In this document: positions 107-28,495 of the stretch, piece by piece
Layout of the letters: each line of letters opens with the position of its first letter
How positions within the stretch are numbered: position 1 is the stretch's first letter
Assembly: GCA_009692785.1 (NCBI GenBank)
Contig: SHYN01000008.1
Span: forward strand, 1-32,646
Origin: Chloroflexota bacterium
GTDB taxonomy: Bacteria > Chloroflexota > Limnocylindria > P2-11E
Length of the DNA stretch: 32,646 nt
Direction: 5' to 3'
Made by a program: the position numbers and the translations under genes
Notes under the pieces: generated by a model
Seen by the model: the letters and a program-made list of their open reading frames with translations, nothing else
Told to the model about the DNA's origin: nothing
Database searches by the model: none

Positions 107-1228
107 TTAAGGATACGCGTGACCGGGCGGGCGCGGCGGACCGAACAGGCTGAGTCCGTCCTGAGGCGCCTCCTTCGCGAAGCACATGACGACGAACGCC
201 CCCAGGCCCCTGGGGTCGAGGAGTGTCTCCACGGCGGAGCGGCGGCTCGTCGCGCGGAGGAGGTCAAGCGGGCCGCTCGGACGGGCGACTGCCTCACGAG
301 CACCCAGCGCCAGCAGCACGTCGCGTTGGGTGCTTGTGCCGACGTGTTGCAGCCCGGCCCCCTCGGCCGCGCGACGGATCGCGGTGAAGTTCACGCTCGC
401 GGTGAGGTCGTGCGTACCCGGCTCTGCGAGCGGGTCCTCCACGAGGCGATGGCGCGCGTAGCCTCGGACGGTCCCCGCACCCGAGCGCGCGAGGAGTCCC
501 GCCTCGTCCGCACCATAGTCGATGAGCAGCAGGTAGCCGCGTGAGAGCGCCGCCGCGATGCCCGCCAGCCAGCCCTCCGCCGCGGGGCTTGCCTCCCACC
601 GGCCACCGGCGGGAACGGTGTCGGGGATGCGCAGGCGCAGATCAGGGTGGCTCGGGGCGCGCAGCACCTCAACGAAGCGGCCGTCTTCCACCGCTACGAA
701 CACCTCGCGCACGCCGTCGGTGCCGCGCACCAGGATGTGCACGGGAAACGCATCGAGCACCTCGTTCGCGAATACCACGCCGTCGATCGGGGCGAGGGCG
801 CGTGCGACCGACGCGTAGCGAAGCTCGCGACCCTCGAGGGCCAGCGCCTGCTGGTCTCTGAGCCGGGGCGACACCTCGACGATCGCGGGGCGAACGCCGC
901 GCGCGGCCTCCGGCCGCTCGCGACCCAGCGTGCCGAGCAGGTCGCGCATGAGAACGCCCCGCCCGGCCCCCGCCTCGACGAGGTCCCAGCTCGGCGGGTG
1001 ACCGAGGGCGGCCCAGAACTCCCCCATCGCCCGTGAGAGCGCCTTGCCAAAGGTCGGGCCAAGGTCGGGCGAGGTGAGGAAGTCACCCTCGTAGCCGATG
1101 GCGGCGCGGCTCGTGTAATAGCCGTCCGCCGGGTCGTAGAGCGCGGCTTCCATGAACTGGGCGAAGGTGAGCGGCCCGTGCGTCCGGATCCGCGCGACGA
1201 GACGGTCGCCGAGCGTCGCCGCGGTCAG
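107..1228 (-). CDS. MidA/NDUFAF7-family (DUF185) SAM-dependent methyltransferase; candidate CTG start overlapping the upstream stop
   Basis: HGPLTFAQFMEAALYDPADGYY N-terminus, VEAGAGRGVLMRDLL SAM motif, FANEVLDAFPVH, LLLIDYG; typical of the Methyltransf_28/MidA family. Confidence 0.88.
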   Translation of the reverse strand: MTAATLGDRLVARIRTHGPLTFAQFMEAALYDPADGYYTSRAAIGYEGDFLTSPDLGPTFGKALSRAMGEFWAALGHPPSWDLVEAGAGRGVLMRDLLGTLGRERPEAARGVRPAIVEVSPRLRDQQALALEGRELRYASVARALAPIDGVVFANEVLDAFPVHILVRGTDGVREVFVAVEDGRFVEVLRAPSHPDLRLRIPDTVPAGGRWEASPAAEGWLAGIAAALSRGYLLLIDYGADEAGLLARSGAGTVRGYARHRLVEDPLAEPGTHDLTASVNFTAIRRAAEGAGLQHVGTSTQRDVLLALGAREAVARPSGPLDLLRATSRRSAVETLLDPRGLGAFVVMCFAKEAPQDGLSLFGPPRPPGHAYP

Positions 1229-3630
1229 GCCCCCCAGGGCGGCGGCCCGGGCGGGCGGATCTCCGGCGGGCGCGTGTCCTCGTGGCCGCCGAGCGGGATC
1301 TGCTCGGAGACCTTCCAGGTGCGCGCACCGGCAAGCTCCTCCTTGGAGAGGACCGTCACACCGAACCGCTTGTACGTGGAGAGCTCGAAGTTCGGCGTTT
1401 CGCCGAGCGCGCCGTGCGGGCAGACCTCGACGCAGTCGCCGCAGTAGATGCAGCGCACGACATCGATCTCGTACGAGGTCAGATCGCGCTCGCGGAGCAT
1501 GAGCGCTCCGGTGGGGCAGGTCTCGACGCAGGCGCCGCACGAGACGCAGTCGGTGAAGTTGAGTGAGGCATTGAAGGGTGTCGTGACGATCGAATCGAAG
1601 CCGGTCCCCATGAGCCCATAGCAGTCGGCGCCGATGACGTCCTTGCAGATCCGCACGCACTGCGTGCAGTTGATGCATTTGTTCAGGTCGCGAAGGATAA
1701 AGTCGTGGGTGAGGTCGTACTCGTAGTCGTGGTAGTCGACCGGTTCCGCGCGGTGGAACCGGTTATCGGTGAGCTTGTGCTCCAGCGACAGCCGCTGGAG
1801 GTCGCAGCGGCCAACGTCAGGGCAGACACACTGGAGGCACCGGCCCGCCTCCTTCTCGGCGGCGGCCTTGTTGTAGCCCTTCTCGATGAGCTCAAAGGAG
1901 AGGACGCGCTCGGCATACGGGAGGAAGGGCATCCGGACCTGTGGCTCCTCGGGCTTGTAGGGAACGATGTCGATAAGCTCGGGGACCTCCTCCTCGGCGG
2001 CGATCTCCTTCGCCACCTCGGCCATGTCCGCACCCGCAAGGAAGCGGTCGATCGCCTTCGCGGCGAGCTTCCCCTGGGCGACGCATTGGATGACGGTGGA
2101 CGCGCCGATGACGGCATCACCACCGGCAAAGACGCCGGGACGGTCGGTCACGAACGCCGCATTGGTGATGATCGTGTCGCGCCTCGTCTTCCGGAGGCCC
2201 TGCTCCTTCTTCACGAAGTCGAGGTCGGGCGTCTGACCGAAGGCCGCGATCACGATGTCGCACTCGATGACGTGCTCCGACCCGACCACGGCGATCGGCC
2301 GGCGACGACCCGAGGCATCGGGCTCGCCGAGCTCCATCCGCTGGAACTCGACACCGGCGACCCTGCCGTCGCGCTCGACGACGCGCACCGGCGCGACGAA
2401 GAACTCGAGCCGGATGCCCTCATGTTCGGCGTCGTCGACCTCGGTGTAGTGGGCGCCCATCTCCTTGCGGGAGCGGCGATAGCAGAGCGTCACCTCGGCC
2501 CCAAGGCGGCGGGAGGTGCGCGAGCAGTCGAACGCGGTGAAGCCGCCGCCGAGCACGACGACCCGCGAGCCCTTGCCCACCTCGACGGGAATCCCGGAGG
2601 CGTTGTCGCGGAGGAACTGCACCGCCGGGATGACGCCCCGAAGGCCCTCGCCGGGGACCCGCATCTCGTTCGACACCCAGGCCCCGATACCGAGGAAGAC
2701 CGCGTCGTAGCCCCTGGTCAAGAGGTCGTCGACGGTGAAGTCGCGACCGAGCTCCATCCCGCCCTTGAACTCGGTGCCCTGGAGCTGCCAGACGCAGTCG
2801 AGCTCCTTGTCGAGCTTCACCTTGGGGAGGCGGTACTCGGGAATGCCGTAGCGCAGCATCCCGCCCTGTTTGGCGAGGCGGTCGAAGACGGTCACCGCAT
2901 GTCCTTTGAGGGCCACGTAGTAGGCCGCGGTCATCCCCGCGGGACCCGCGCCGATGACCGCCACCCGCTTGCCGCTGGCGACCTCTTGCGGGAACGGCGT
3001 CGGCGCCTGGTCCATCTCCATGACCATCTCGCCGGTATAGCCGTGGCACTGGCAGATCGCGATCTCCTCTTCGACGAGACCGCGACGGCAGACCTCCTGG
3101 CAGGGGCGCGGGCAGACGAGCCCGAGCGTGAACGGGAAGGGCAACGTTTCCTTGACGAGCCGCGCCGCCTCGACATGCTGGCCCTTGGCCATGAGCTCCA
3201 GGTAGCCGGGAATGTCGATGTGCGTCGGGCAGGAGACCTGGCACGGCGGCAGGCAGTAGGCATTGTGGTCCGAGAGGATGTACTCGAGGTTCTGCCGGCG
3301 CTCCTTGAAGAGTCCGTCGCTCGCCGACACGATGCGCATCCCGGCTTCGACCGGCAGGTGGCAGGAGGGCAGCGGGCGGTCGTGACCCTCTACCTCGACC
3401 AGGCACATCCGGCAGGCCGCCGCGGGCGCGAGCTTCTCGTCGTCGCAGAGCGTCGGCACGTTGAAGCCTGCACGTTGTGCGGCGCGAAGGATGGCCTCGC
3501 CCGCCACGGCAGTGATCTCCTGGCCGTCGATGGTGATCGTGACGGTGGGCTGCCCGGACGGGATCTCGCCGTGGTGGGAGACGGTCGGCAGCTGCGACTC
3601 GCCGGGCTGGAGGTTGGTGAGGAGGCTCAT
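1225..3630 (-). CDS. 801-aa composite FeS flavoprotein: NuoG-type 2Fe-2S N-terminus, GltD-type FAD/NAD(P)H oxidoreductase, NuoG-type and NuoI-type 4Fe-4S clusters
   Basis: 2Fe-2S Cys (C62/C73/C76/C90), HNAYCLPPCQVSCP, Rossmann VIGAGPAGMTAAYY and VVLGGGFTAFDCSR, CYRRSRKEM, then CINCTQCVRIC, CVSCGACVETCP and CIYCGDCVEVCP. ATGA overlap with the upstream gene. Confidence 0.9.
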   Translation of the reverse strand: MSLLTNLQPGESQLPTVSHHGEIPSGQPTVTITIDGQEITAVAGEAILRAAQRAGFNVPTLCDDEKLAPAAACRMCLVEVEGHDRPLPSCHLPVEAGMRIVSASDGLFKERRQNLEYILSDHNAYCLPPCQVSCPTHIDIPGYLELMAKGQHVEAARLVKETLPFPFTLGLVCPRPCQEVCRRGLVEEEIAICQCHGYTGEMVMEMDQAPTPFPQEVASGKRVAVIGAGPAGMTAAYYVALKGHAVTVFDRLAKQGGMLRYGIPEYRLPKVKLDKELDCVWQLQGTEFKGGMELGRDFTVDDLLTRGYDAVFLGIGAWVSNEMRVPGEGLRGVIPAVQFLRDNASGIPVEVGKGSRVVVLGGGFTAFDCSRTSRRLGAEVTLCYRRSRKEMGAHYTEVDDAEHEGIRLEFFVAPVRVVERDGRVAGVEFQRMELGEPDASGRRRPIAVVGSEHVIECDIVIAAFGQTPDLDFVKKEQGLRKTRRDTIITNAAFVTDRPGVFAGGDAVIGASTVIQCVAQGKLAAKAIDRFLAGADMAEVAKEIAAEEEVPELIDIVPYKPEEPQVRMPFLPYAERVLSFELIEKGYNKAAAEKEAGRCLQCVCPDVGRCDLQRLSLEHKLTDNRFHRAEPVDYHDYEYDLTHDFILRDLNKCINCTQCVRICKDVIGADCYGLMGTGFDSIVTTPFNASLNFTDCVSCGACVETCPTGALMLRERDLTSYEIDVVRCIYCGDCVEVCPHGALGETPNFELSTYKRFGVTVLSKEELAGARTWKVSEQIPLGGHEDTRPPEIRPPGPPPWGA

Positions 3631-4856
3631 GGTTGGACCATTCTTTCGTAGCGCCGCACGCGGGTGGGCGCGCAGGTTCCGGTCGGGCAGCGGCCATCGT
3701 CGATGTGCGCGCGGTACTCGGCGCCGAATTCGGCCATCGTGGTGCGGAGGATCTGCGGCGCGGTGATCCCGAAGCCGCAGAGCGAGAAACGAGCCATCTG
3801 ATCGCCGATCTCGGTGAGCCACGGCAGGTCCGCGGTGCGACCGAGGCCGGAGGTGATGCCGGCCAGGATGCCCTCCACGCGCTTGGTGCCGACGCGGCAG
3901 GGCACGCAGATCGCGCAGGACTCCTCGGCGAGGTAGGCGAAGAGCCGGCCCGCCTCGGCGACGACGCAGGTCTCGGCGGGAATCGCGCGGATCTGCGCCG
4001 ACCCGAGGTGCGCGCCCACCGCCGCGAGCTCCGCGTAGTCGAGGGTGACATCCCGGCGCGACGCCGCAAGGAGACCACCGGTCGGGCCGCCCACGTGAAT
4101 CGCCTTGAGGCCCGCGGCAACGCCCGCACCGTCGAGGATCGTTCCGAGCGTCGTGCCAAAGCCGACCTCGTACACGCCGGGGCGGGCGACCGCGCCGGTG
4201 ACCGAGACGAGCTTCGTGCCGGGGGTGGCGGCGGTGCCGCTCGCGCGGAAGCCGTCCGGTCCCTCACGGACGATCGAGGGCAGCCAGGCGAGTGTCTCGA
4301 CGCTCTGCACGAGCGTTGGCCGGCCGCGCAGGCCCTCCCGCGCCGGATACGGCGGCCTCTGGCGCGCCATCGCCTTCCGCGACTCCAGCACCGCGAGCGC
4401 GATCGATTCCTCACCCCCCGCGAACCCGCCCGGACCGATCGCGATCTCGACCCCGAGGTCGCCAAGGTCAGAGGCGGCGGTGGAGAGAGCTGCCAGCGCT
4501 CCAGTTCGGGTCGCGGTGGACTCGGGATGCAGGTACAGATACGCGCGGGTCGCGCCCACGGCACGCGCGGCGATCGCGATGCCGTCGAGCACGCGCCGCG
4601 GCTGGCGCTCCAGCAGCGTCGCGGCGATCGGGCTCTGGCGGTCGGCGTCGTAGCCGTTGGCAACGACAAAGGGCTCCCGTCCGCCGGCCGCGCTGCCGAG
4701 AACGGCGCGGAGCTTGGCACCCGTCGAATAGCCCGCCCCACCGCGACCCCGCAGCCCCGACCGCTCGACGCGCGAAACGATCTCCTCCGGGCTCACCTCG
4801 GTCGCACCGAGTGCACCGCTGGCCGGTGGGTCACCCAGGAGCCGCGACACCCGCAC
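3627..4856 (-). CDS. Divergent NuoF-like protein (SLBB and N3 4Fe-4S retained, NADH/FMN motif degenerate)
   Basis: GLRGRGGAGYSTGAK, GRPTLVQSVETLAWLP, ESCAICVPCRVG...CGFG; lacks NADESEPG. GTG start inferred; start uncertain. Confidence 0.82.
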   Translation of the reverse strand: MRVSRLLGDPPASGALGATEVSPEEIVSRVERSGLRGRGGAGYSTGAKLRAVLGSAAGGREPFVVANGYDADRQSPIAATLLERQPRRVLDGIAIAARAVGATRAYLYLHPESTATRTGALAALSTAASDLGDLGVEIAIGPGGFAGGEESIALAVLESRKAMARQRPPYPAREGLRGRPTLVQSVETLAWLPSIVREGPDGFRASGTAATPGTKLVSVTGAVARPGVYEVGFGTTLGTILDGAGVAAGLKAIHVGGPTGGLLAASRRDVTLDYAELAAVGAHLGSAQIRAIPAETCVVAEAGRLFAYLAEESCAICVPCRVGTKRVEGILAGITSGLGRTADLPWLTEIGDQMARFSLCGFGITAPQILRTTMAEFGAEYRAHIDDGRCPTGTCAPTRVRRYERMVQP

Positions 4857-4857
4857 C

Positions 4858-5580
4858 TCAGTCGGCAAAGGCTGCCTCCATGACGTGATGCACCTCGTCC
4901 TCGTGGAGCCGATCGTGCGAGGGCGGCGACGAGACCGGGGGCCAGGCGCCGGCGATCCCGATATTCCCGGTGAAGCGCCGCTCGCCGCGAGGGACGGACG
5001 TGCCCGCACCCTCGGGGGCGCCGCGGAAGTTCGAGAGCGCCGAGGCCGCGGTGTAGACCTTCGTCACCGTCATGTCGAGCTCGCCGGCGATCTGCGCGGC
5101 GGCCGCCCACGGCAGATACCCGTACGCCGCATGCGTCGCCCAGAGCGCGCGTGTCAGGCGGTCGGCGCCGCCCGCCGCCTGCTCGCCGAGGATCCTCGTC
5201 ACCGGACCAAGGTCGAGCCCGGGCTCATCGTTCGGATCGATGGTCACGACCACGGTCGACACCGGTCGCCGAGCACCATACGGCATCGCCGCGACCATGC
5301 GGATGCGGTAGTAAGCCGCGCGCGGCGCGATCGGTGGGCGCTTGCGGAAGCCGTTGCGGAACGAGTACGAGATCGAGATCGCACGAGGCGGACAGGCCTT
5401 CTCGCACAGGAGACAGGACTCGCACTTGAAGATGCTCGTCTCCGGCTCAAGGAGGAGGGCGATGAGGCCGCGGCTCCGCTCGGGGAGCTCGCGCTTTTCG
5501 TACGGATACTTCCGAGTGACCGGCCGAGGATGCACGAGATGCTCGAGCGTGCGGAGCATTCCGCCGATGATGCCGAACAT
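4858..5580 (-). CDS. Fusion of a NuoI-like N-terminal half (one 4Fe-4S) with a NuoE-like helical domain (no 2Fe-2S thioredoxin domain)
   Basis: MFGIIGGMLRTLEHLVHPRPVTRKYPYEKRELPERSRG...CESCLLCEKACP followed by ALWATHAAYGYLPWAAAAQIAGELDMTVTKVYTAASALSNF. AGGAG 5' of ATG at 5580. Confidence 0.75.
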   Translation of the reverse strand: MFGIIGGMLRTLEHLVHPRPVTRKYPYEKRELPERSRGLIALLLEPETSIFKCESCLLCEKACPPRAISISYSFRNGFRKRPPIAPRAAYYRIRMVAAMPYGARRPVSTVVVTIDPNDEPGLDLGPVTRILGEQAAGGADRLTRALWATHAAYGYLPWAAAAQIAGELDMTVTKVYTAASALSNFRGAPEGAGTSVPRGERRFTGNIGIAGAWPPVSSPPSHDRLHEDEVHHVMEAAFAD

Positions 5581-5665: not shown

Positions 5666-6841
5666 TCACCTGTCCACCTCGCCGAGCACGAAGTCAAGCG
5701 ATCCCATGATCGCGACGGCGTCGGAGACGAGGCGACCGCGCAGCAGCCAGGGCAGGACCTGCAGATTCAGGAACGAAGGCCCGCGGAATTTCGCGCGGAA
5801 CGGATTGGGGCCGCCGTTCGAGATCATGTAGACGCCGACCTCGCCCTTCGCACCCTCGACCGTGTAGTAGGCCTCGCCCTTGGGGCACTTCCATACGTGG
5901 CCGAGGCGGGCGCGCACAGCCCCGCCCGGTAGGTTGGTGATGCACTCGCGGATAAGCCGGATGGCGAGGCGCATCTCCCCCACCCGGACCTTGTAGCGAG
6001 CGAAGGCGTCACCTTCCTGCATGATCACCGGCTTCATCTCGGTGAGCTCGGGATAGACCCCGTAGGGCCGTGTCCGCCGCAGATCGACCTCGACGCCGGA
6101 GCCTCTGGCGATCGGGCCAGACACGCCGTAAGCGACGGCGATGTGCGCCGGGATCAACCCGATGCCGACCGTCCGCTCCAGGAAGATCTCGTTGCTCTCC
6201 AGGAGTCCCACGTAATCCGATTCGATGTGCTCCTCGTAGCGGTCGAGGAGGCGCTCGAGCTTTGCGAGCCACCCGGGAGGCAGGTCGTAGAGCACCCCGC
6301 CGGGCCGGTAGTAGTTGAAGTTCATGCGCGAGCCGCAGAGCTCCTCGAACAGGTCGAGGATCTCCTCGCGGTCGCGAAAGCAGTAGAGGAGCGGCGTCGT
6401 CGCGCCCACATCAAGGCCGTACGTGCCGAGCCACACGAGGTGCGCCGCGCAGCGCGACAGCTCGTCGACGATGACGCGGATGTACTCCGCCCGTCTCGGG
6501 ACCTCGATCGCCCCGATCGTTTCCATCGCGCCGGTGTAGCAGTGCTCGTTAAGCATGTTCGAGACGTAGTCAGCCTGGTCCGCATAGCGGATGCCCTGGG
6601 TATAGGTGCGCCACTCAAAGATCTTCTCGATGCCTCGGTGCAGGTAACCCATCACCGGGATGCATTCGACGACTCTTTCACCCGAGAGCTTCAGCACGAG
6701 GCGCAGCACGCCGTGGGTCGAGGGGTGCTGAGGCCCCATGTTGAGGATGAGCTCCTCGGTCTCGATGCCCTCGTCGGACTCCACGATCGGGAGGACGATG
6801 TTCCCGCCTTCCAGGGTCGCTTGGACCTCGGCGTCAACCAC
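5666..6841 (-). CDS. nuoD: NADH-quinone oxidoreductase subunit D, second paralog (NuoD2)
   Basis: [56 protein letters not shown]-terminal [15 protein letters not shown] start overlapping nuoB2. Confidence 0.95.
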
Positions 6842-7415
6842 CCTTTGCGATCTTCTCCCGGAGCCGCAGGACTCCCTCCGTCAGCGCTTCGGGCCGGGGC
6901 GGGCACCCCGGGACATATACGTCCACCGGCACGATCGTGTCGACACCCTGAAGGGTCGCGTACGAGTCCCAGAATTCTCCACCCGACGAGGCGCAGTTGC
7001 CCATCGCGATGACCCATTTCGGCTCCGGCATCTGCTCGTAGAGCCGCCGGAGGCGTGGGGCCATCTTGTGCGTCACCGTGCCGGCCACGATCATGACGTC
7101 GGCCTGCCGCGGACTCGACCGGAAGACCTCGGCACCGAAGCGCGAGAGATCGTGGTGCGAGGCGGCGGTCGCCATCATCTCGATCGCGCAGCAGGCAAGC
7201 CCGTATCCGAGCGGCCAGGGGCTCCGCGAGCGCGCCCAGTTGACGAGCGCGGTGAGGCTCGCGAACACGATGTTGTCGTCACCGGCCAGGATGCCCGGCG
7301 TGGGTGCCGTCGCCGCCGGCGCGGCGAGTCCGGCCTGATCGGTTTCGGGTCGGCGCTGGATGACGTCGTGCTCGAAGTCGATCGGGCGCAGCGGGAGCTT
7401 CTCGAGTGCGGTCAT
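6834..7415 (-). CDS. nuoB: NADH-quinone oxidoreductase subunit B, second paralog (NuoB2)
   Basis: [55 protein letters not shown]2 cluster cysteines intact. Confidence 0.96.
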
Positions 7416-8254
7416 CGCGACAAGTTTAGGGACTCCGCGCCGGTCTGCACGGCAGCCCGGAGCAGCGCGAGGAGCGACTCGTGGAGCGCCGCCCCGCTTG
7501 CGACGATCCGCGGCTCACCGCCGCTGGCCGCGGCCAGCTCGCTCACGCGGCCTCCAGCTTCGGTGACGAGGAGCGCACCCGCGACCCAGTCCCAGGGATG
7601 CGAAACAGACTCGAAATACAGGTCGTGGCGACCCGCCGCGACCCAGGCCAGGTCGAGCGCGGCCGAACCGTGCCTGCGGACGTCACGGACCCGCGGGAGG
7701 ATGGTCGCGAGGATGGCCGCCTGCCTGGCCCGCTCGTGCGCTTGATACGAGAACCCGGTCGACGCGAGCGCGAGCGCCAGATCGCTCACCGCATTCACCG
7801 CGAGCCGGCGGTCCGGCCCGCCACCCGGCCCGCGCAGCCAGGCGCCGCCGCCGCGGCACCCGAGGAACAGCTCGCCCTTGAGCGGATCGAAGACGACTCC
7901 CGCCAGCGCACCGTCCGCGTCGGCGCAGGCGATGGCCACGGACCAATGAGGGATGCCGTAGAGATAGTTCGCCGTTCCATCGAGAGGATCGACGAACCAG
8001 CGGATGCCGCTGGAGCCGTCGCCACCGGCAGAGCCCTCCTCCGCGATGATGCGGTCCGCGGGGCGGGCCGCACGCAGACCCCTGACGATCGCCGCCTCGG
8101 CAGCCCGGTCGGCGTCCGAGACCGGATCGGTCGCGCTCGACTTCGTCGAGGCGCCCTCGGCGGGACGGCCGAAGCGGCCAACGAGGATCGCACCCGCTTC
8201 CGCCGCGCACCGCTCGGCGAGCGCGAGCGCCTCGGACGCATGCAGCCGACTCAC
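7412..8254 (-). CDS. Inositol monophosphatase family protein
   Basis: [42 protein letters not shown] and C-terminal [15 protein letters not shown] motifs. Confidence 0.93.
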
Positions 8255-9897
8255 CGCTCCTGGACCACGCGGCCGTCCGGGCGCGGATCGACCGGTGAGT
8301 GCGCCGTCACATATGCGGCGACCACGTCGACATCAAGGTCGCCGAAGAGGACGTTCGTGCCGACCGCGAACTCGCTGTGACCGTCGCCGCCCAGATGGAG
8401 GTAGTCGATGGTGGCCACGTGGTAGATCCGGGCGGGATCGATCGGCTTTCCTCCAACGGCGGCGCTCAGGACCCTTCGTCCCGGTGGATTCTCGAACCGG
8501 TACGTCCATCGCACGCCGCCAGGATGCAGCCGTCCCGCGCCGCCGGACGCCGCCTCGAGCACGTCGCGCAGGGCCGCACCGGTCAGGTCGACGTTCACGA
8601 CGGTGTTGCCAAAGGGGAGCGCATCAAAGAGCGCGCCGTAGGTCAGGGGACCGGCGAGGAGGGAGGCGCGCAGGCCCGCGCCGTTATAGAACGACACATC
8701 GGTCTCCCAGCGCTGGGAACGACCGTACTCGAGGAGCGCATCGGCCACGAGGTTGCCCAGGCCGGTGTCCGGATCGCGGCTCGCGGCGAGCGGGCTCGTA
8801 GCGCTTCCCACGACCCGCGCGGTGTAGGTCAGGGTGAGCGCGCGCTGGGCCTCGACGATCCTCGCCACCTGCGGGTCGGATCCCGCCGCGGTGCCGGCCA
8901 CCGCGATGAGCTCGTCTGCCCTCGTCACGGCGACGATCTTCCGCGCCGCGATCCGGAGATCCAGCCGGCCGAGATTGAGCGCCGCCGTGCCGGCCTGCAC
9001 GATGGTGGTCGTCCCGACGAGCCGCGCGGTGCGGAGCGCGGTGTGCGAGTGTCCACCGACGATGACGTCGATCCCGGGGACCGCGGTCGCGAGCATGACG
9101 TCAGACTCATCCCAGGCGTACCGCTGGTCGATCCCCAGGTGCGTGAGCGCCACGACGATGTCCGCCTGCTTTCGCAGTTCCGGCACCCACCTCCGCGCGG
9201 CCTCGATTGCCGATGTGAAACGGAGCCCGACGACGTTCGAGGCTTTGGTGTTCACATGGGGATACGTGAGACCAAGGACCGCCACCTTCACGATGCCGAG
9301 GTCTTTTACGATGTACGGCCGGGCGTAGGACGGGACGGCGCCCTGCGCGTCCGCGAGGTTCGCCGCCAAATACGGGAACGGCGACGCTCCAGCGCGCTTC
9401 GCGAGGTTCTCCTGCCCGTAGTCGAATTCGTGGTTCCCGATGGCCATCGCGTCATAGCGCATGAGCGCCATGACGCCCGCCATCGCCTCGCCCTTGCTCA
9501 CGGCGGAGGCGAAGGTGCCCTCCCACGCGTCTCCCGCGTCGATCAGCAGCGTCCGCTCCGGCCCGCGGGCACGGTACGCCGCAGCGAGGCCGGCGAGACC
9601 GGCCATCCCGCCCTGCTGGAACGACCCGTTGCCGCCGCGCACGGTCTCCGCCTCGAGGTGCCCATGCAGATCGTTCGTGTGCAGGATCTGGATCTCGTCC
9701 GCGGCGAGCGCTGGGCGGGTGGCGACCGATCCCACGGCGGGCGCGGCCGCCGCGAACGGTGTACCTCCGGCTCCAGGAACGACCGCGTCGGGGCCACAGG
9801 CTCCGAGGAGGAGCGCAGCGGCAAGGAGCGCACGCACCGGGGACCCTGGACGCTCGCTACGCGCCGGCGACCTCTGCCGCACGGTACTGGAGCTCAT
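8251..9897 (-). CDS. 5'-nucleotidase / metallophosphatase (UshA-like), predicted lipoprotein
   Basis: Lipobox LLLGAC; ILHTNDLHGHLE, LIDAGDAWEGT, IGNHEFDYG, GGHSHT; 5'-nucleotidase C-terminal domain. A GTG start at 9837 is an alternative that would avoid overlap with the ABC gene. Confidence 0.93.
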   Translation of the reverse strand: MSSSTVRQRSPARSERPGSPVRALLAAALLLGACGPDAVVPGAGGTPFAAAAPAVGSVATRPALAADEIQILHTNDLHGHLEAETVRGGNGSFQQGGMAGLAGLAAAYRARGPERTLLIDAGDAWEGTFASAVSKGEAMAGVMALMRYDAMAIGNHEFDYGQENLAKRAGASPFPYLAANLADAQGAVPSYARPYIVKDLGIVKVAVLGLTYPHVNTKASNVVGLRFTSAIEAARRWVPELRKQADIVVALTHLGIDQRYAWDESDVMLATAVPGIDVIVGGHSHTALRTARLVGTTTIVQAGTAALNLGRLDLRIAARKIVAVTRADELIAVAGTAAGSDPQVARIVEAQRALTLTYTARVVGSATSPLAASRDPDTGLGNLVADALLEYGRSQRWETDVSFYNGAGLRASLLAGPLTYGALFDALPFGNTVVNVDLTGAALRDVLEAASGGAGRLHPGGVRWTYRFENPPGRRVLSAAVGGKPIDPARIYHVATIDYLHLGGDGHSEFAVGTNVLFGDLDVDVVAAYVTAHSPVDPRPDGRVVQER

Positions 9898-11722
9898 AGA
9901 GGCGATGGTAGACGCCGCGCTCCGCGAGGAGCTCGCGGTGCGTGCCCGCCTCCGCGACGCGGCCTTTGTGCAGGACGATGATCCGATCGACGTTCTGGAT
10001 CGTCGACAGACGGTGCGCGATGATGATCGAGGTCCTTCCGATCATCAGCTTGGCGAGGGCGTCCTGGATCAGACGCTCGGTCTCGGTGTCGACCGAGGAG
10101 GTCGCCTCGTCGAGCACGAGAAGGATCTCAGGGTTGAAGGCGATGGCCCGCGCGAACGCGAGGAGCTGCTTCTGGCCGACCGACAGCGTCGAGCCTCGCT
10201 CGGTGACCGGCGTGTCGTAGCCCTGCGGGAGCTTCTGGATGAAGGCCTCGGCGTTGACGAATCGCGCGGCGGCGCGCACGCGCTCGTCGTCGATCCCCGG
10301 GTCGCCGAGCCGGATGTTCGACGCGATGGTGCCCGCGAAGATGAACGGGTCCTGGAGCACCACCCCCACGTGCCTCCGGACATCCGCCTGCAGCATGTCG
10401 CGGAGGTCCACCCCGTCGAGTCGGATCGTTCCGCGCTGTACGTCGTAGAAGCGTGAGATGAGGCTGATGATCGAGGTCTTTCCCGCCCCGGTCGCGCCCA
10501 CGATCGCGACGCTCTCTCCCGCGCCGATCCTCATGTCGACGTCTCGCAGCACCCAGTCCGGACCGCCGCGCCCATCCGCCGCCGCCTCTGTGGGCGCATC
10601 CGCGCGGCCGGAGTTGTAGGCGAACCAGACATGGTCGAAGGCGATCTCGCCTCTCACGTGCTCGAGATGCACGGGGTGCGCAGGCTCCTTGATTGTCGCG
10701 GCGGTGTCCATCAATCGGAAGATGCGCTCCGAAGACGCCATCGCGGCCTGGAGAATGTTGTATTTCTCGGCGAGGTCCTGGATCGGGAAGAAAAATCGGT
10801 CGACGAGCTGCCAGAAGGCGAGGAGCGTACCCAGGGTCAGCTCACCGTTCTGGATCAGCAGCGCACCAATGCCGAACAGCAGGGCGCTCGTCACCTGGCG
10901 GGTCAGGGTGATCGAGGGATGGAATGCGGACATCACCCTGATCTGACCGCGATTCGCGACGAGAAGGTCACGATTCAGGTCATCGAACTGCCGGAACGCA
11001 GCACGCTCGCGCGCGAAGAGCTGCACCACGGACATGCCGGTGATGTTCTCGTTGAGGTAGGCGTTGATCCGCGCGAGGCGGATGCGGATGGCCCGAAAGG
11101 ACTCGCGCATGACCCGGCGGAAGTAGCCGGTGAGGAGCACGACGATTGGCATCGAGACGAAGGTGACGAGCGTGAGCCTCCAATCGAGCAGGGCCATCGC
11201 GCCGGCCACGACGACGAGCATGAACAGGTCGCTGATGATCGACACGACCCCCCGCTGCACCATGTCGATGAGCGCATCGATGTCGTTCGTCAGCCTCGTC
11301 ATGAGCCTTCCGACCGGATTGCGATCGAAGAACGTCAGGGAAAGCCACTCGACATGCCGGAAGAGCGCCACCCGCAGGTCGTACATCGCACGCTGCCCGA
11401 CGTAGGCGGTGAGAACGTTCTGGCCATAGCGGATCGCGGCGGTCCCGAGGAGTACGCCGACGTAGAGGAGGCCGAGCGGCAGGAGCCGAGAGATGCCCTC
11501 CTCGACCCCGATCCTCCGAGCGACGGCCGGCCCGATCGATTCGTCGATGATGAACTTCTGGAGCAGGGCCGGAGCGATCTGGGCGAACGACATGCCGACG
11601 ATCAGGGCGACCGACAGCGCGAGAAGGCCGCGGTACGGGCCAAGGTAGCTGGAGAGGCGACGCATGAGCTTGGCGTCGTAGGCCTTGCCCAGCACCTCGT
11701 CCTCGTGGAAGTAGCCCGCCAT
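9857..11722 (-). CDS. ABC exporter subunit (TM288-like half of heterodimer; catalytic Glu present, signature LSVGQ)
   Basis: ABC membrane domain plus NBD: GATGAGKTS Walker A, LSVGQKQLLAFARAI, LVLDEATSSVDTETE, AHRLSTIQ. Confidence 0.96.
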   Translation of the reverse strand: MAGYFHEDEVLGKAYDAKLMRRLSSYLGPYRGLLALSVALIVGMSFAQIAPALLQKFIIDESIGPAVARRIGVEEGISRLLPLGLLYVGVLLGTAAIRYGQNVLTAYVGQRAMYDLRVALFRHVEWLSLTFFDRNPVGRLMTRLTNDIDALIDMVQRGVVSIISDLFMLVVVAGAMALLDWRLTLVTFVSMPIVVLLTGYFRRVMRESFRAIRIRLARINAYLNENITGMSVVQLFARERAAFRQFDDLNRDLLVANRGQIRVMSAFHPSITLTRQVTSALLFGIGALLIQNGELTLGTLLAFWQLVDRFFFPIQDLAEKYNILQAAMASSERIFRLMDTAATIKEPAHPVHLEHVRGEIAFDHVWFAYNSGRADAPTEAAADGRGGPDWVLRDVDMRIGAGESVAIVGATGAGKTSIISLISRFYDVQRGTIRLDGVDLRDMLQADVRRHVGVVLQDPFIFAGTIASNIRLGDPGIDDERVRAAARFVNAEAFIQKLPQGYDTPVTERGSTLSVGQKQLLAFARAIAFNPEILLVLDEATSSVDTETERLIQDALAKLMIGRTSIIIAHRLSTIQNVDRIIVLHKGRVAEAGTHRELLAERGVYHRLYELQYRAAEVAGA

Positions 11723-13572
11723 CAGGGCTGCCCATCTTCGCTCAGGCCGGCGCGGCGACCACCGAGTCGCGGCGGCTCAACGGCCAGCGCGGGATCCTCG
11801 GACCGGACCCGCCGCTCGTGCTCCACCTGCTCCTCGTCCACCTGGAGCTCCTCCTCGACGAGCTGGCGCCGATACATCCGGGCATAGAGGCCTCCCTGCT
11901 CGAGGAGCGTGCGGTGGTCACCACGCTCGGCGATGCGTCCGTCGTCAAGGACGAGGATCAGGTCTGCATCCTTCACGGTCGAGATCCGATGCGCGACGAT
12001 GATGCTCGTCCGCTCGCTCATGACGCCGCGAAGCCGCCGCAGGATCTCCGCCTCGGTATAGGTGTCCACGGCGGAGAGCGCGTCGTCCAGGATCAGGACC
12101 CGCGGATCCTTGGCGACGGCGCGCGCGATCGCGGCGCGCTGCTTCTGCCCTCCGGACAGCGTCACGCCCCGCTCGCCGATCATCGTCTCGTACTTCGCCG
12201 GAAAGTCCGCGACGTCCTTGTTCAGCTGCGAGACGTCGCCCGCCCATTCGAGCTGCGAAGGAGTGAGCGCCCGCTCCGCGCCGAAACCCACGTTCTCCCG
12301 GAGCGGCACCGAGAACAGAAAGGTCTCCTGGGGCACATACCCGATAGCTCGGCGGAGCATCTCGAGCGGAAAGCGCCTGACACTCACGCCGTCAAGGAGC
12401 ACCTCACCCTGCTGCGCGTCGAAGAGCCGAGGGATGAGGTTCACGAGCGAGCTCTTCCCCGCTCCGGTGTGGCCGACGATCGCCAGCGAGCTGCCCGCGG
12501 GAACCCTGAACGAGACGTCACGCAGCACGACCGTCGGCCCGTAGGCAAAGGTAACCCCCCGGAACTCCACCTCACCGCGGATCGGACCGGCGACCGGATC
12601 GGCCGGCTCCGCGATCTCGGGAACCGCGTCGTACAGCTCCTGCAGCCGCCGCAGCGAGGCCCAGCCCTGCTGGATGAGATTCGTGACCTCACCGAGCATG
12701 ATCATCGGCATCGAGAGCAGCTGGAGGTAGGCAACGAACTGCACGAGCTGGCCCAGAGTCAGGTCACCGCGGATCGCATCCTGGCCCCCAACCCAGAGCG
12801 CTGAGAGCACCGCGAGGCCGATGAGAAAGCTCATCGCCGGCCAGATCAGCCCATCGACGCGCGCCAGCTGCACCGCACGAGCGGCGTACTCGTCGGTCGC
12901 TCGCGCGAAGCGCGCGATCTCGGGCTCCTCCTGGGAGAACGCCTTGACCACGCGAATGCCGGAAAAGTTCTCCTGCGCCCTGGTCGACAGCTCCGCGAAC
13001 TGCTCCTGGAGCCTCTCGAAGAGAACATGCACACGACGGCCGATGCTCCAGAACGCGAGCGATACCAGAGGCATGATGACGAGAGCGATGAGCGTGAGGT
13101 GGACCGATACGGCAAGCATCGACACGAGGCTGAAGACGAAGATCACCGCAGTCATCACCACCGCTTGTACGCCAAAGCCCATCATCTGGCGGACCGCGCC
13201 CAGGTCGTTGATCATCCGCGCCATGATGTCGCCGGTTCGTTGGTGCTGGAAGTAGGCGAGGTGCATGCGCTGGAGATGGGCGAACAGATCGTTGCGCATG
13301 GTGTATTCGACCTCGCGGGAGACGTTCAGAACGCTGTAGCGCCCGATCACCCGCAGGAGTGACTCGACGACGGTCGCGGCCACGATCCCCACCGCGAGCG
13401 CCCCAACGGCCGCGAACGCGCTCGGTCGGCCCAGCTCGTCGAAGATCGCGCCCACCAGGCGCGGCGGGATCACCGCAAAGAACGCGGCGGCTGACAGCGC
13501 GAGCGCGCCCTGGGCGAGTTGCCGCCGATGCTGCCCCATGTGATGCAGGAAGGTGTCGCGAGGTCGAGCCAC
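11722..13572 (-). CDS. ABC exporter subunit (TM287-like half of heterodimer; Asp at catalytic Glu position)
   Basis: GHTGAGKSS Walker A, LSGGQKQRAAIARA, LILDDALSAVDT Walker B, AHRISTVK. TGATG overlap with the next gene. Confidence 0.96.
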   Translation of the reverse strand: MARPRDTFLHHMGQHRRQLAQGALALSAAAFFAVIPPRLVGAIFDELGRPSAFAAVGALAVGIVAATVVESLLRVIGRYSVLNVSREVEYTMRNDLFAHLQRMHLAYFQHQRTGDIMARMINDLGAVRQMMGFGVQAVVMTAVIFVFSLVSMLAVSVHLTLIALVIMPLVSLAFWSIGRRVHVLFERLQEQFAELSTRAQENFSGIRVVKAFSQEEPEIARFARATDEYAARAVQLARVDGLIWPAMSFLIGLAVLSALWVGGQDAIRGDLTLGQLVQFVAYLQLLSMPMIMLGEVTNLIQQGWASLRRLQELYDAVPEIAEPADPVAGPIRGEVEFRGVTFAYGPTVVLRDVSFRVPAGSSLAIVGHTGAGKSSLVNLIPRLFDAQQGEVLLDGVSVRRFPLEMLRRAIGYVPQETFLFSVPLRENVGFGAERALTPSQLEWAGDVSQLNKDVADFPAKYETMIGERGVTLSGGQKQRAAIARAVAKDPRVLILDDALSAVDTYTEAEILRRLRGVMSERTSIIVAHRISTVKDADLILVLDDGRIAERGDHRTLLEQGGLYARMYRRQLVEEELQVDEEQVEHERRVRSEDPALAVEPPRLGGRRAGLSEDGQP

Positions 13573-13597
13573 GTGAGGACGATTCTAGGCGACGGTC

Positions 13598-13611
13598 ACC
13601 CTCGCGAGGGT
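13598..13611. promoter_or_regulatory. 14-bp perfect palindrome ACCCTCGCGAGGGT at the MFS/ABC junction, possible operator
   Basis: Self-complementary sequence starting at the MFS stop codon and lying upstream of a TAGAAT -10-like hexamer (minus strand) before the ABC start at 13572. Confidence 0.3.
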
Positions 13612-14948
13612 CACACCTGCGCGGGCGCCGCGGCTGCACGGCGGATGCGCCCCCCGCCGATCCAGGCACCCCACACGATGGCGCTACCGCCGAGAAAGAC
13701 CGGTGCGACACCCCACGCGTCCGCCACCGGCCCGACGAGGATGAGCGGCAGGAACGAGAACACCGAGACCAGACTGTTCAGCACACCGAAGACCCGACCG
13801 CGAAGGTCCTCACGCAGGTCCTCCTGAAGCATCGTGATCGCGGGGACGATGATCCAGGCATAGGTCATGCCGAACACGAACATGACCGCACCGACGACGG
13901 CGACGAAGAACGGAAAGGCCTCGCCGAGCTCGGCCGTCGCCGTCCGCCGGAAGACCTCGGCGAACGGGCGCGCGAGCGCAAGCGCCACGAGCGCGCCGCC
14001 GAGCACCACAAGCGCGACACCGATCGCGTTCGCCCGCGAGACCCGGGCCCCCAGAAGATTGAGGAGGACAAGGCCGGCGATGACCCCGAGCCCGGCCGGC
14101 GCGACGAGGTAGATGACATCGCGCTCACCAAGTCCCAGAACCTCGCGGACGAAGCCCGGCGCCAGCGCGCCTGCGACCGCAACCAGCGTGTTCGCGATGC
14201 TGATGTAGATGAGGGACCAGACGAGAAGCGGCGTCGAACGAAGGAAGCGGAATACCGTCCAGACCTCATGCAGCCCGCGACCTGTCTCCTTCACCGCGAG
14301 CCCGGCAGCGGCCCGCCCGAGCGAATGATCGACCGCCACCTCGCCGGTCCCCGCCACGTCGCCGGTCCCGGGGAGCGTGACGCAGAGGACCCCGGCCCCC
14401 GCGAACATCGCGGCCAGCATGACGAACAGGACGTCGAAGCCAAAGAACTTGATGACCACGGGAGCGAGCAGCACGAACCCCGCGAGGAACGCGCCGTTAA
14501 AGGTGAAGGTGAAGAGCGAGTTCGCGACGAGCAGGTCCTTCTTGCGAACGATCGTGGGAAGCATCGCGGCCTCGGCGGGGACGAAGAACACCGTGATCGT
14601 CGCGACGAGCACGTTGACGACGTACGCCGCGGCAACGTCCTGCTGCAGGATGAGAAAGACCCCGACCGCGACAGCCCGGAGACCGTTCGTGACGACGAGC
14701 ATGTGCTTCCTGTCGCTGCGGTCAACGAGGACCCCCGCGAACACACCAAAGAGCACCGCCGGGATGACCGACAGGAGGATGAGCAGCGACGAGGACACGT
14801 TCGAGTGCGTCCGCTCGGCCACGAGCACGATGAGGGCGAATGTCGTCGCGTTCGCGGCGACCTGCGAGAGGATCTGGGCGAACCAGATCGCGAGGAACGC
14901 ACGGTTGCGCAGGGGGCCGCGCTCCGCGGCGACCATGAGATCGGCCAC
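13611..14948 (-). CDS. MFS transporter (MFS_3 / EntS-like)
   Basis: 12-TM hydrophobic profile; RNRAFLAIWFAQILSQVAANATTFALIVLVAERTHSNVSSSLLILLSVIPAVLFGVFAGVLVDRSDRK. Confidence 0.92.
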   Translation of the reverse strand: MADLMVAAERGPLRNRAFLAIWFAQILSQVAANATTFALIVLVAERTHSNVSSSLLILLSVIPAVLFGVFAGVLVDRSDRKHMLVVTNGLRAVAVGVFLILQQDVAAAYVVNVLVATITVFFVPAEAAMLPTIVRKKDLLVANSLFTFTFNGAFLAGFVLLAPVVIKFFGFDVLFVMLAAMFAGAGVLCVTLPGTGDVAGTGEVAVDHSLGRAAAGLAVKETGRGLHEVWTVFRFLRSTPLLVWSLIYISIANTLVAVAGALAPGFVREVLGLGERDVIYLVAPAGLGVIAGLVLLNLLGARVSRANAIGVALVVLGGALVALALARPFAEVFRRTATAELGEAFPFFVAVVGAVMFVFGMTYAWIIVPAITMLQEDLREDLRGRVFGVLNSLVSVFSFLPLILVGPVADAWGVAPVFLGGSAIVWGAWIGGGRIRRAAAAPAQV

Positions 14949-24950: not shown

Positions 24951-25907
24951 TCATCGCAGGACCACCAAGAGCGCCACGATCGCGAGGTCGATGAGCGACA
25001 GCGGCAGCAGCACCTTCCAGCCAAAGGCCATGAGGCGGTCGTACCGCACGCGCGGGAGGCTCGCGCGGAGCCAGACGAAGCAGAACATCACGAACGAGAC
25101 TTTCAGCCCGACCGCCGCCAGCCCGAGCAGGCCGCCGCTGAAGGGCCACCAGCCTCCGAGGAAGAGCGTCGTGATGAGCGCCGCGGCCACCAGTGCGTGC
25201 AGGTACTCACTGAGCATGAAGAACGCGAAGCGGAAGGCCGAATATTCGGTGTGGTAGCCGGCACCAAGCTCCTGCTCGGCCTCGGGAAGATCGAACGGCG
25301 CGCGACTTGCTTCGGCGAGCCCGGCGAGGACGTAGACGGCGAAGCCGATCGGTTGGGTCACGATGAACGGGACCGGGAACTGCGCCTCAACGATGCTCAC
25401 GAGTGACAGCGACCCCGTGGCGGCCACCACGCCGAGCGCCGCGATGCCCTGCGCGAGCTCGTACGAGATGAGCTGCGCGCTCGAACGGAGGCTGCCGAGG
25501 AGCGAGTACTTGCTGTTCGCGCTCCAGCCGCCCAGCATCACGCCGTAAACGCCGATCGACGAGATCGCAGCGACGTAAAGATAGCCGACATTCAGATCCG
25601 CAAGGCGCCACTCGGGCGACAGCGGGATGACCGCGAAGACGAGCACGACCGGAACGAGCGTCATGAGCGGTGTGAGGAAATGCAGCCAGCGGTCCGCCCC
25701 CAGCGGACGGACGTCCTCCTTGAAGAGGAGCTTCAGGACCTCGGCGAGCGGCTGGAGCAGACCGCCCGGGCCGACACGGTCGGGCCCGACGCGCGCCTGC
25801 ATGCGCGCGATCACCCGCCGCTCGGCAAGGATCGCGTAGGCGCCGATCGTGAAGATCGCGAGCAGCAGGCCGGCGGCCTTGACGCCGGCGATGAGGACCT
25901 CGCTCAC
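24951..25907 (-). CDS. nuoH: NADH-quinone oxidoreductase subunit H
   Basis: [77 protein letters not shown] overlap. Confidence 0.97.
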
Positions 25908-28495
25908 GCCTTTTCCACCTCGATCCGTGGCCAGGGGTCGCGCCAGGCGAGGAGGAGATTCGTGCGCACACCGACCGCGTTCTCCGCGAGGAAGGCGCGA
26001 CCACGGGGCATCGCCGCGACGTGACGCGCCGACGCGTGCACCTTTCCGTGGCGGCTGCGGATCTCCACCGCATCGCCGTCCGCCACGCCGCGAGCAGCCG
26101 CATCCTCGGGGTTCAGCTCGATCACGCCGGCGGCCGCGCCCGCCACCAGCGTCGTCGAGTGCGCGAGCATCGTGCCGTCGCCGATGAGGAGCGGCGCCGT
26201 CATGAGCAGGATCCCCTCCCCCGCCTCCGGGCCGCTCGGAGCGAGCCACGCGTAAGGCCCGTGCGAGGCGGATGGACGGGCCGGACGCGTCACCACGCCG
26301 GGGACGGCGACACCGTGTGGCTGGTCGGATGTCCGAAAGAGTTCCTCGCCGGCGCTCAGGGGAACGGCCGCGAGCGACGAGCCACGCCGGATCGGGCTCA
26401 CCCGAGCCGAGCCGGGCATCCCCAGCGGCCAGCCACCCGGGGCGAAGAACGCCTTCTGCGTCGTCACGCCGCGGCTCTCGGGAGTCGCACTCGCGTAGAC
26501 GCCGAGCACCCCACCGGGCGGGTGCGCCATGGTCGTACCGGGCCCGGGCGCGCCGGCCATCGGGAGCGCCGCCGACACCTCGGGCAGCCGCGCAGCCCGT
26601 AGCAGATAGGCGCTCGCCGGCTCGCGAAGATCGAGGCGCGCGGCCAGGTCGAGCAGGATCGCGAGATCCGTTCGCGCCTCACCGGGCGGCTGGGTCACCG
26701 GCGCCACCGGCTGCGTCCGGCCTTCGATATTCGTGACCGTTCCCGCCTTCTCGGGCAACGCGGCGGCGGCGAAGACGGCATGCGCCTTGCCGGCAGTCGC
26801 CGAAGGCGCGATGTCCTGCACGACCAGGAGCTCGACCCTCGCAAGGGCGCGCTCCACCATCTCGCGATCCGGAAATGTCCGGAGCGGATCGACCCCGACG
26901 AGGTAGAGGGCCTTGATGCGGCCCTCCGCGGCCGAGGCGATGATCTGGCCACCGGCGACGCCTCCCGGGCCGGGGAGCAGGCCGGCACGGGTCGCCCCCA
27001 TCGCATTGGGTGCTCGCGTGAGCACACCCGTGCGCTCGAGCGCGTCGGGACCGCTCGCCGTGAGCGCCAGCGCCGCCAGCGCGCGCGCCACGGCCTCACC
27101 GTCGGGCCGGGACTCGAGCGTCGCTCCGGCGAGATAGAGCGGCGCTCGGGCCGCCCGCAGCGCCGCCGGTGGCGCGGCGGCGATGGCGTCGAGCGCGGCG
27201 GCCTCCCCCCCCACGTCGGCACGGATCACCGTCGTCGCATCGCGCTCCACCTCGAGTGGCCGCGCGGACACCACGATGAGGATCGCGCCCCGGCGCACCG
27301 CCTTTCGCAGTCGCAGCCAGAGGATCGGCAGCTCCTCGGTGAGATCGCAGGCGACCAGAACGATGGCGTCCGCGTGCTCGACCTCGGACAGCGAGACCGG
27401 AAGACCGAGAAGGTCCGCGAGCGCACCGCCCGCGCTCCGCGCGGCGCTGCGATGGTCGATGTGCGGCGTGCCCAGCCCCTGGCCGAATACTCGCTGCAGG
27501 AGGACGCACTCCTCATCGGTGAGGCGCGAGCCGCCGAGCACCCCCACCGACTCGGGGCCGTGACGCGCGACGATCGCGCGGAGCTGCTCGGCGACAAAAC
27601 CGACGACGTCGTTCCAGCGACCCGGCACGAGCAGGTCGCCCTCACGTCGAAGCGGCTGCTCGAGACGGGGCGCCTGACTGACGTACTCGATGCCGTACAT
27701 GCCCTTGTCGCACAGCCAAACCTCATTGACCTCCTCGTGCTGGCGCGGCTTCACCCGGATGACCTCGCCCGATCGCGCCTCGTAGCGCACCGCGCAGCCG
27801 ACCGCGCAGTGGCCGCAGACCGAGTCGCCGTACGCGAGGTCCTGCGGCCGCGCGCGAAAGCGATAGGGCTCGCTCGTGAGCGCGCCGCAGGGGCAGAGCT
27901 CGACGATGTTGCCCTGGAACTTCGACCGGAGCGGTCGCCCCTCGAACGTGCCGAGCACGCTCGTCGCACCTCGCTCGGAGAAGGTGAGCTCGGCGTCGCC
28001 GGCGATCTCGTCCATGAAGCGGGTGCAGCGAAAGCACATGATGCAGCGCTCCATGTCAAGCACCACGAGCGAGGAGAGCCGCTCTGCCTTCACGCTGCGC
28101 CGCTTGGGCATGCCAAAGCGGGACACGCTCGGACCGTAGAGGTGCGAGTAGTCCTGGAGCGGACACTCCCCCGCCGCATCGCAGACCGGGCAATCGAGCG
28201 GATGGTTCACGAGCAGGAACTCGAGCACCGAGCGTCGCGCCACGGCGACCTCGGGCAGGTTGGTATGCGCGATCATCCCGTCGGCCACTGGTGTCGTGCA
28301 GGACGTCTGGAGCCCCGGCAGCTTTTCCACCGACACGACACACAGCCGGCAGGCGCCGGCGAGCGACAGCTTGGGGTGGTAGCAGAAGCGCGGCACATGA
28401 ACGCCGGCGAGCCCGGCGGCCTCGATGAGCGGTGTTCCCGCTGCCACCCCCACCGTCTGACCGTCGATCGTCACGCTGACCAGGTTCGTGCTCAT
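25904..28495 (-). CDS. nuoG: NADH-quinone oxidoreductase subunit G
   Basis: 2Fe-2S N-terminus, HPLDCPVCDAAGECPLQD, CIMCFRCTRF...CPCGAL, additional CGHCAVGC...C motif (N7-like), molybdopterin-oxidoreductase-like body. Confidence 0.96.
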   Translation of the reverse strand: MSTNLVSVTIDGQTVGVAAGTPLIEAAGLAGVHVPRFCYHPKLSLAGACRLCVVSVEKLPGLQTSCTTPVADGMIAHTNLPEVAVARRSVLEFLLVNHPLDCPVCDAAGECPLQDYSHLYGPSVSRFGMPKRRSVKAERLSSLVVLDMERCIMCFRCTRFMDEIAGDAELTFSERGATSVLGTFEGRPLRSKFQGNIVELCPCGALTSEPYRFRARPQDLAYGDSVCGHCAVGCAVRYEARSGEVIRVKPRQHEEVNEVWLCDKGMYGIEYVSQAPRLEQPLRREGDLLVPGRWNDVVGFVAEQLRAIVARHGPESVGVLGGSRLTDEECVLLQRVFGQGLGTPHIDHRSAARSAGGALADLLGLPVSLSEVEHADAIVLVACDLTEELPILWLRLRKAVRRGAILIVVSARPLEVERDATTVIRADVGGEAAALDAIAAAPPAALRAARAPLYLAGATLESRPDGEAVARALAALALTASGPDALERTGVLTRAPNAMGATRAGLLPGPGGVAGGQIIASAAEGRIKALYLVGVDPLRTFPDREMVERALARVELLVVQDIAPSATAGKAHAVFAAAALPEKAGTVTNIEGRTQPVAPVTQPPGEARTDLAILLDLAARLDLREPASAYLLRAARLPEVSAALPMAGAPGPGTTMAHPPGGVLGVYASATPESRGVTTQKAFFAPGGWPLGMPGSARVSPIRRGSSLAAVPLSAGEELFRTSDQPHGVAVPGVVTRPARPSASHGPYAWLAPSGPEAGEGILLMTAPLLIGDGTMLAHSTTLVAGAAAGVIELNPEDAAARGVADGDAVEIRSRHGKVHASARHVAAMPRGRAFLAENAVGVRTNLLLAWRDPWPRIEVEKA

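Follow-up and report, generated by a model that had tools for sequence, protein, structure and literature searches.

What is a GltD-type flavoprotein doing inside the NuoG chain of complex I? The question is raised by a 32,646-nucleotide contig of a Chloroflexota bacterium (GenBank assembly GCA_009692785.1, contig SHYN01000008.1), the whole of which we call the window. One gene in it (3630..1225, minus strand, ATG start) encodes an 801-amino-acid protein that its profile and structure alignments identify as a GltD-NuoG-NuoI(C) fusion, named GltDG here. It is the last of five minus-strand genes, nearly or truly overlapping, that encode NuoB, NuoD, a NuoI/NuoE (I/E) fusion, a NuoF-like protein, and GltDG. 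We consider it likely that this system is a proton-pumping reduced nicotinamide adenine dinucleotide (phosphate) [NAD(P)H]:quinone oxidoreductase with its entry point at the flavin adenine dinucleotide (FAD) of a GltD domain inside NuoG, and so a new variant of complex I. The anatomy of the system, i.e., its domain composition, the split of NuoI, the linkage of the genes, the degenerate motifs of NuoE and NuoF, and the absence of canonical NuoG from most relatives, is well supported by sequence, and from it we infer activity, assembly, electron path, NADPH preference, and pumping.

Pfam placed Fer2_4 at GltDG residues 28-103 (1.1e-20), Fer4_20 at 126-206 (4.8e-15), Pyr_redox_2 at 222-520 (2.2e-28), and Fer4_Nqo3 at 644-710 (5.9e-9), with more Fer4 up to residue 741. 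The closest solved chains were StnC (8oh5) and the NfnA subunits of two NfnABC complexes (9bov and 9n5u), which aligned from residue 29 or 30 to residues 711-733 (E values of 5e-163 to 9e-139), and StnC/NfnA proteins topped the Foldseek list for the GltDG model. StnC, part of Sporomusa ovata StnABC, consists of a NuoG-like domain and a GltD-like NADPH domain, in which the FAD serves as an input without bifurcation, and it carries electrons both ways (PMC10482914). Like GltDG, StnC/NfnA (BfuA of Nfn-Bfu) holds a [2Fe-2S] domain, a GltD/NfnB FAD-NADPH module, and NuoG-type iron-sulfur (Fe-S) sequence on a single chain. The order NuoG-type [2Fe-2S], GltD, NuoG-type Fe-S is already known from this NADPH subunit of the StnABC/NfnABC transhydrogenases. 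These comparisons confirmed the original prediction that a GltD-like module lies inside a NuoG-type wire, and they removed its claim of a new architecture as far as domain order alone goes, the same order having been solved and assigned a function (PMC10482914). A NuoG N terminus had been proposed at residues ~30-134; the [2Fe-2S] domain (Fer2_4) stood, and H122/C126/C130/C134 turned out to be no pure NuoG N5 motif but part of a NuoG/GltD hybrid stretch that StnC also has (DHRGDCRPPCMLACP). The NuoG profile TIGR01973 matched GltDG below its cut-off and at NuoG positions 1 to about 95-134 only. NuoG-like sequence does resume after the GltD module, as had been proposed, in the Fer4_Nqo3 region (residues 644-710); from about residue 713 on, the protein is instead the C-terminal half of NuoI, where StnC/NfnA has an FdhF-like domain.

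The full GltDG domain order was kept in 24/24 aligned relatives (46 to 81% identity). Among 35 key positions tabulated across them, all Fe-S cysteines, H122, H196, and R260 were invariant; the cysteines of the region from residue 598 to 710 are C598/601/603/609, C652/655/658/662, and C695/698/701/705. Chance or a chimeric assembly as the origin of the fusion is ruled out by this conservation. R260 aligns with R239 of StnC, and C114 of StnC is replaced by I140 in all 24 relatives. The FAD-proximal [4Fe-4S] cluster of StnC has Lys170 as its non-cysteine ligand, with Glu at this place in NfnB (PMC10482914), whereas GltDG and its relatives have His196 (24/24). A histidine ligand predicted by this alignment would be new relative to StnC and NfnB. 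The Arg-rich YRR motif that had been read as a sign of NADPH preference proved well conserved, with Y384 and R386 in 24/24 relatives and R385 in 23/24, as in NADPH-using relatives, which by analogy makes NADPH the probable donor over NADH.

The best NCBIfam match of GltDG, PRK12814 (564.8 bits over residues 29-665, short of the 916-bit cut-off), is named "putative NADPH-dependent glutamate synthase small subunit"; it represents PRK12814/SfrB-type proteins, and its 657-position model stops short of the NuoI-type C terminus. The name would suit an independent glutamate-synthase-like oxidoreductase that merely sits beside nuo genes. We find such a reading highly implausible, since GltDG bears half of NuoI and stands in for NuoG in the operon of genomes that have no second NuoG, and since the cluster lacks a large subunit of glutamate synthase. 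An identity as glutamate synthase was rejected on the missing large subunit and on NCBIfam matches below cut-offs.

The half of NuoI on GltDG has its complement on the I/E fusion. On the 121-position NuoI profile TIGR01971, the I/E fusion covers positions 1-66 and GltDG residues 713-756 cover positions 69-112. Against the PDB, I/E residues 4-76 matched NuoI chains at their N-terminal half (8qby_I, 17-87 of 163) and the GltDG fragment 712-790 matched them at their C-terminal half (8qby_I, 91-150 of 163; 6.2e-13), with similarity extending past the cysteines. We assigned the halves from these profile and PDB coordinates because MAFFT had aligned both to motif II. Every one of 22 I/E members matched NuoI and had motif I alone. 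Both NuoI [4Fe-4S] motifs are present in the system, but they are divided between two proteins. In NuoI/Nqo9, each of the two clusters draws its fourth cysteine from the opposite motif. If this rule holds, GltDG and I/E must pair, because each cluster needs cysteines from both motifs; we infer that the two proteins share the N6a/N6b clusters and are locked together by them.

The genes around GltDG place it with complex I. NuoB and NuoD of the window have the N2 cysteines and the quinone-site motif and have no NiFe cysteine motifs, and a NiFe-hydrogenase reading of the pair was rejected on that absence. The five-gene order recurs among relatives of the window's family. At five loci from the same class (families f3, f4, and f5), a complex I operon encloses GltDG, which takes the position of NuoG. 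Two of them (L085/L086) have the order B, D, H, I/E, F, GltDG, J, K, L, M, N; NuoA and the NuoC region were recognized there by reading open reading frames rather than by profile. The other three (L087, L088, and L094) show the parts of the operon that fit on their contigs. The membrane-arm genes (A, H, J, K, L, M, and N) are found in the L085/L086 operon, at a separate locus in the window's own family, and in part in the window genome. The separate locus carries H, J, K, L, M, and N (L098, L100, L101, L102, and L109); in L100, NuoA can be read upstream of H. The window genome has a second NuoH on contig C92, L-, M-, and N-type subunits on C52, and a NuoJ that is interrupted where C92 and C52 end. 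Ktedonobacterales-like genomes have three loci (B-IE-F-GltDG, A-C-D-H, and J to N) plus a separate canonical nuo operon; in G068, a single-contig genome, NuoJ and the L/M/N set each occur exactly twice.

A five-gene cluster without membrane genes, whose NuoF-like protein has HydB as its best PDB match, might in the window's family encode a soluble complex apart from the membrane arm, with NuoB/D as a hydrogenase-like or other module in the manner of HydABCSL. That electron-bifurcating NiFe-hydrogenase (7t2r) also has a NuoG/F/E-like core and a NuoB/D-like pair; the variant differs from it in a NuoD without the NiFe site, in the lack of BfuB extensions, and in the presence of NuoI and a membrane arm. 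We judge a soluble complex very unlikely. NuoD has the quinone-site HPSTHG and no NiFe cysteine motifs, the N-terminal half of NuoI keeps its docking stretch, and the system is a single operon in other families of the class. Moreover, three genomes of the window's family (G075, G091, and G163) have a single NuoH and neither another NuoD nor another NuoF linked to NuoB/D, so that their membrane arm would be left without a peripheral arm.

We surveyed 400 genomes of one phylum, Chloroflexota. GltDG had matches at E ≤ 1e-100 in 113 of them, and of the 55 listed genomes of the same class 51 were among these. Genomes with the full fusion number at most 113, because the weakest matches (~40 to 46% identity, confined to residues 120-620) come from GltD-type proteins of other kinds. 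A scan of contigs across genomes gave full-length matches in Chloroflexi records only. Among 25 genomes tested, NuoG above the TIGR01973 cut-off occurred only in the window's own genome and eight Ktedonobacterales-like genomes; none was detected in the other f1 genomes or in the f2 to f5 genomes, where absence is called from genomes that are 89 to 99% complete and mostly draft metagenome bins (the window genome is 67% complete). NuoH, NuoD, and NuoF each occur once in the 99%-complete G021 and likewise in G075, G091, and G163. Extra lower-scoring NuoH/NuoD-like matches in G250 and G345 and extra NuoF matches in G345 and G243 weaken the claim of an only complex I for these genomes. The GltDG-type complex was often the sole complex I found in the tested f1 to f5 genomes. 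In a NuoD tree, one branch (support 100/98) divided 17 sequences of the variant lineage from seven canonical NuoDs, which shows separation rather than a rooted clade, as the tree has no outside root; about 25 residues present in all seven canonical NuoDs are missing from 17/17 variant NuoDs.

These distributions also bear on direction. A complex running in reverse, with quinol and the proton-motive force reducing NADP+ for biosynthesis, would fit the NADPH site, the bidirectional StnC, and the canonical NADH complex I that stands alongside in Ktedonobacterales-like genomes and the window genome. We hold it to be very improbable, because in most tested f1 to f5 genomes the variant is the sole complex I found and respiration would then have no coupled NAD(P)H entry. 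The window also contains a canonical nuo operon (B to N; 18.9-32.6 kb, minus strand, same contig) with a molybdopterin-type NuoG at 25904-28495; it may be a later acquisition, or a contig misassembly, because the tested own-family relatives lack canonical NuoG.

The standard NADH-oxidizing parts look degenerate. NuoE is reduced to its N-terminal helical part in the examined f1, f4, and Ktedonobacterales-like copies, and the longer NuoE domain of L094 (f5) and the f3 copies misses the second cysteine pair. The NADExEPG motif of Nqo1 contacts flavin mononucleotide and NADH. We compared NuoF in three groups, the window's own family (A), f3 to f5 (B), and Ktedonobacterales-like genomes (C). In every complete copy compared, NADExEPG reads N(A/G)YDAD in groups A and C and NLIGAD, NLMGAD, NGYGAD, or NGYESD in group B, and the N3 motif CGKC is changed to CGKA, CGKS, or CGKT in 5/5 group B copies. 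The system has neither the full set of NuoE [2Fe-2S] cysteines nor the intact NuoF NADExEPG of a canonical NADH-type complex.

NuoF is present in all loci, and groups A and C retain N3 and some of the flavin site. This would allow a bifurcating or confurcating enzyme in which the GltD-FAD takes NADPH, the NuoF flavin exchanges NAD(H) or another carrier, and quinone reduction is coupled to two pools. A precedent is Nuo-Bfu, a complex I proposed for Geobacter and others in which a bifurcating module replaces NuoEFG (PMC9304861). We regard this version as unlikely, because the BfuB B2-B5 and BfuC clusters that define bifurcating enzymes are absent: the NuoF-like protein, at ~410 amino acids, has no N- and C-terminal BfuB extensions to carry B2-B5, and the BfuC/NuoE [2Fe-2S] either is not there or lacks some of its ligands. 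In addition, NADExEPG is altered everywhere, and N3 is one ligand down in group B. No BfuBC/StnAB-type core (BfuB with B2-B5, BfuC [2Fe-2S]) was found as a partner of GltDG, whose neighbors are NuoB/D/I/E/F and the membrane arm, in contrast to the bifurcating StnAB that accompanies StnC. Judged against the published description, BfuABC with extra Fe-S clusters in BfuB was not found either. The variant and Nuo-Bfu are alike in being complex I operons with a nonstandard input module instead of NuoEFG; they differ in that Nuo-Bfu has BfuABC with extra clusters (ferredoxin/NADH confurcation), whereas the input of the variant is a GltD-type FAD within NuoG.

Given the complex I gene context, entry at a flavin within the chain normally fed by NuoE/F, as the original prediction had it, is the best reading, and we count the NADPH input of the StnC GltD-FAD as its precedent. 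NAD(P)H, more likely NADPH, would hand a hydride to the FAD in the GltD domain. From there electrons would run one at a time through the two GltD-type [4Fe-4S] clusters and the NuoG-type clusters of GltDG to the two NuoI-type clusters (N6a/N6b) shared with I/E, and on to N2 in NuoB and to quinone at NuoD/NuoH, and this transfer would drive the membrane arm. What remains of NuoE would be retained, like NuoF, mainly as a structural or regulatory part. Several observations weigh against this path. All four N3 cysteines are kept in NuoF of groups A and C, and GRGG and GEE are largely kept (groups A and C have them), so NuoF may bind flavin, and a second flavin site may still work in these groups. 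Peripheral and membrane genes are unlinked in the window's family and in Ktedonobacterales-like genomes, and NADPH preference is argued from analogy. AlphaFold of whole GltDG (24-row alignment) was confident for the GltD part and fell below 50 for residues 574-801; the model therefore neither supports nor refutes the C-terminal fold, and the Foldseek match bears on the N-terminal two thirds of the protein. The chances look about even for a more specific version in which the GltD-type NADPH/FAD site is the only working dehydrogenase site, the proximal [4Fe-4S] cluster is His ligated, N6a/N6b are shared between two polypeptides, and coupled respiration in several Chloroflexota families, where no other complex I was found, begins with NADPH in place of NADH.

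Complex I is usually held to have one NADH site, in NuoF, or no such site in the 11-subunit forms, many of which have no known electron donor. The variant shares the NuoB, NuoD, NuoF, and NuoI pieces and the H, J, K, L, M, and N arm with canonical NADH complex I and differs in having no molybdopterin-type NuoG, a split NuoI, a NuoE without [2Fe-2S], an altered NuoF motif, and a NuoD ~25 residues shorter. Replacement of the N-module is a known idea, as Nuo-Bfu has already been proposed, and what is new is the genomic setting of GltDG among complex I genes, not its domain order. We found no description of a GltD-type N-module replacement or a split NuoI in the open-access literature, the body of work searched. 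The original prediction was borne out in part; it had not noted the strand, the NuoB/D/IE/F partners, the division of NuoI, or the degeneration of NuoE and NuoF. The lineage suggests that the electron input of complex I could be shifted into mid-wire and that a well-known proton pump may be fed through a different inlet in a widespread Chloroflexota group. It provides a natural candidate for a proton-pumping dehydrogenase linked to NADPH and makes testable which parts of NuoEFG coupling needs. Because profiles name GltDG a glutamate synthase small subunit and miss NuoG, the respiration annotation of widespread uncultured Chloroflexota should change.

Table 1. Coordinates of the variant gene cluster and of the assigned parts of its proteins in the window
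Feature	Position	Strand	Basis or remark
GltDG fusion	1225..3630	-	801 aa; profile, PDB and relative alignments
NuoG-type N-terminal [2Fe-2S] domain, residues 28-103 (C62, C73, C76, C90)	3322..3549	-	Fer2_4 1.1e-20; Cys 24/24
GltD/NfnB-like module, residues 126-533: two [4Fe-4S], FAD and NAD(P)H Rossmann folds, YRR 384-386	2032..3255	-	
His196 codon, at the StnC Lys170 position	3043..3045	-	StnC alignment; 24/24 His
NuoG/StnC-type Fe-S region, residues 598-710	1501..1839	-	Fer4_Nqo3; StnC alignment to residue 733
NuoI C-terminal half, residues 713-770 (motif II, C727/730/733/737)	1321..1494	-	TIGR01971 positions 69-112; PDB NuoI chains, best E 4.8e-13
NuoF-like subunit	3627..4868 (start TTG 4868 or GTG 4856)	-	N3 cysteines kept; NADExEPG reads NGYDADRQ
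NuoI(N)-NuoE(N) fusion, 240 aa	4858..5580	-	four cysteines only (C53/56/59/63)
NuoI N-terminal half, including the stretch docking on the membrane arm in complex I	5350..5571	-	TIGR01971 positions 1-66; PDB NuoI N-half
NuoE/StnA-like helical remnant without [2Fe-2S] domain	5008..5190	-	matches 8oh5_A, 7q4v_C
NuoD of variant lineage	5666..6841	-	quinone-site HPSTHG kept; NiFe cysteine motifs absent
NuoB of variant lineage	6834..7415	-	N2 cysteine motif kept

A Methyltransf_28 gene (window 107-1216, minus strand) follows GltDG in most loci of the family and precedes the nuo operon in L087/L088. Its relatives (NDUFAF7) methylate the mitochondrial NuoD homologue, and the link to nuo genes may for this reason be functional. 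Several loci carry unusual copies. L080 (G321, 6984-14646) has three tandem GltDG genes after one NuoF-like gene, two with identical scores, from amplification or an assembly repeat, and L097 (G352, 9693-12113) is a second GltDG copy of its genome with no nuo neighbors. GltDG of L048 (9989-12337) is frameshifted near residue 620-634, by sequencing error or as a pseudogene. A figure legend on Thermomicrobium roseum lists nuoA-E,H-N, without nuoF and nuoG (PMC6776052). At L076 (10016-12127), a Chloroflexi protein with a NuoG N terminus and a dicluster before GltD lies beside a NuoF-like protein with NAADADPQ and is possibly an independent fusion.

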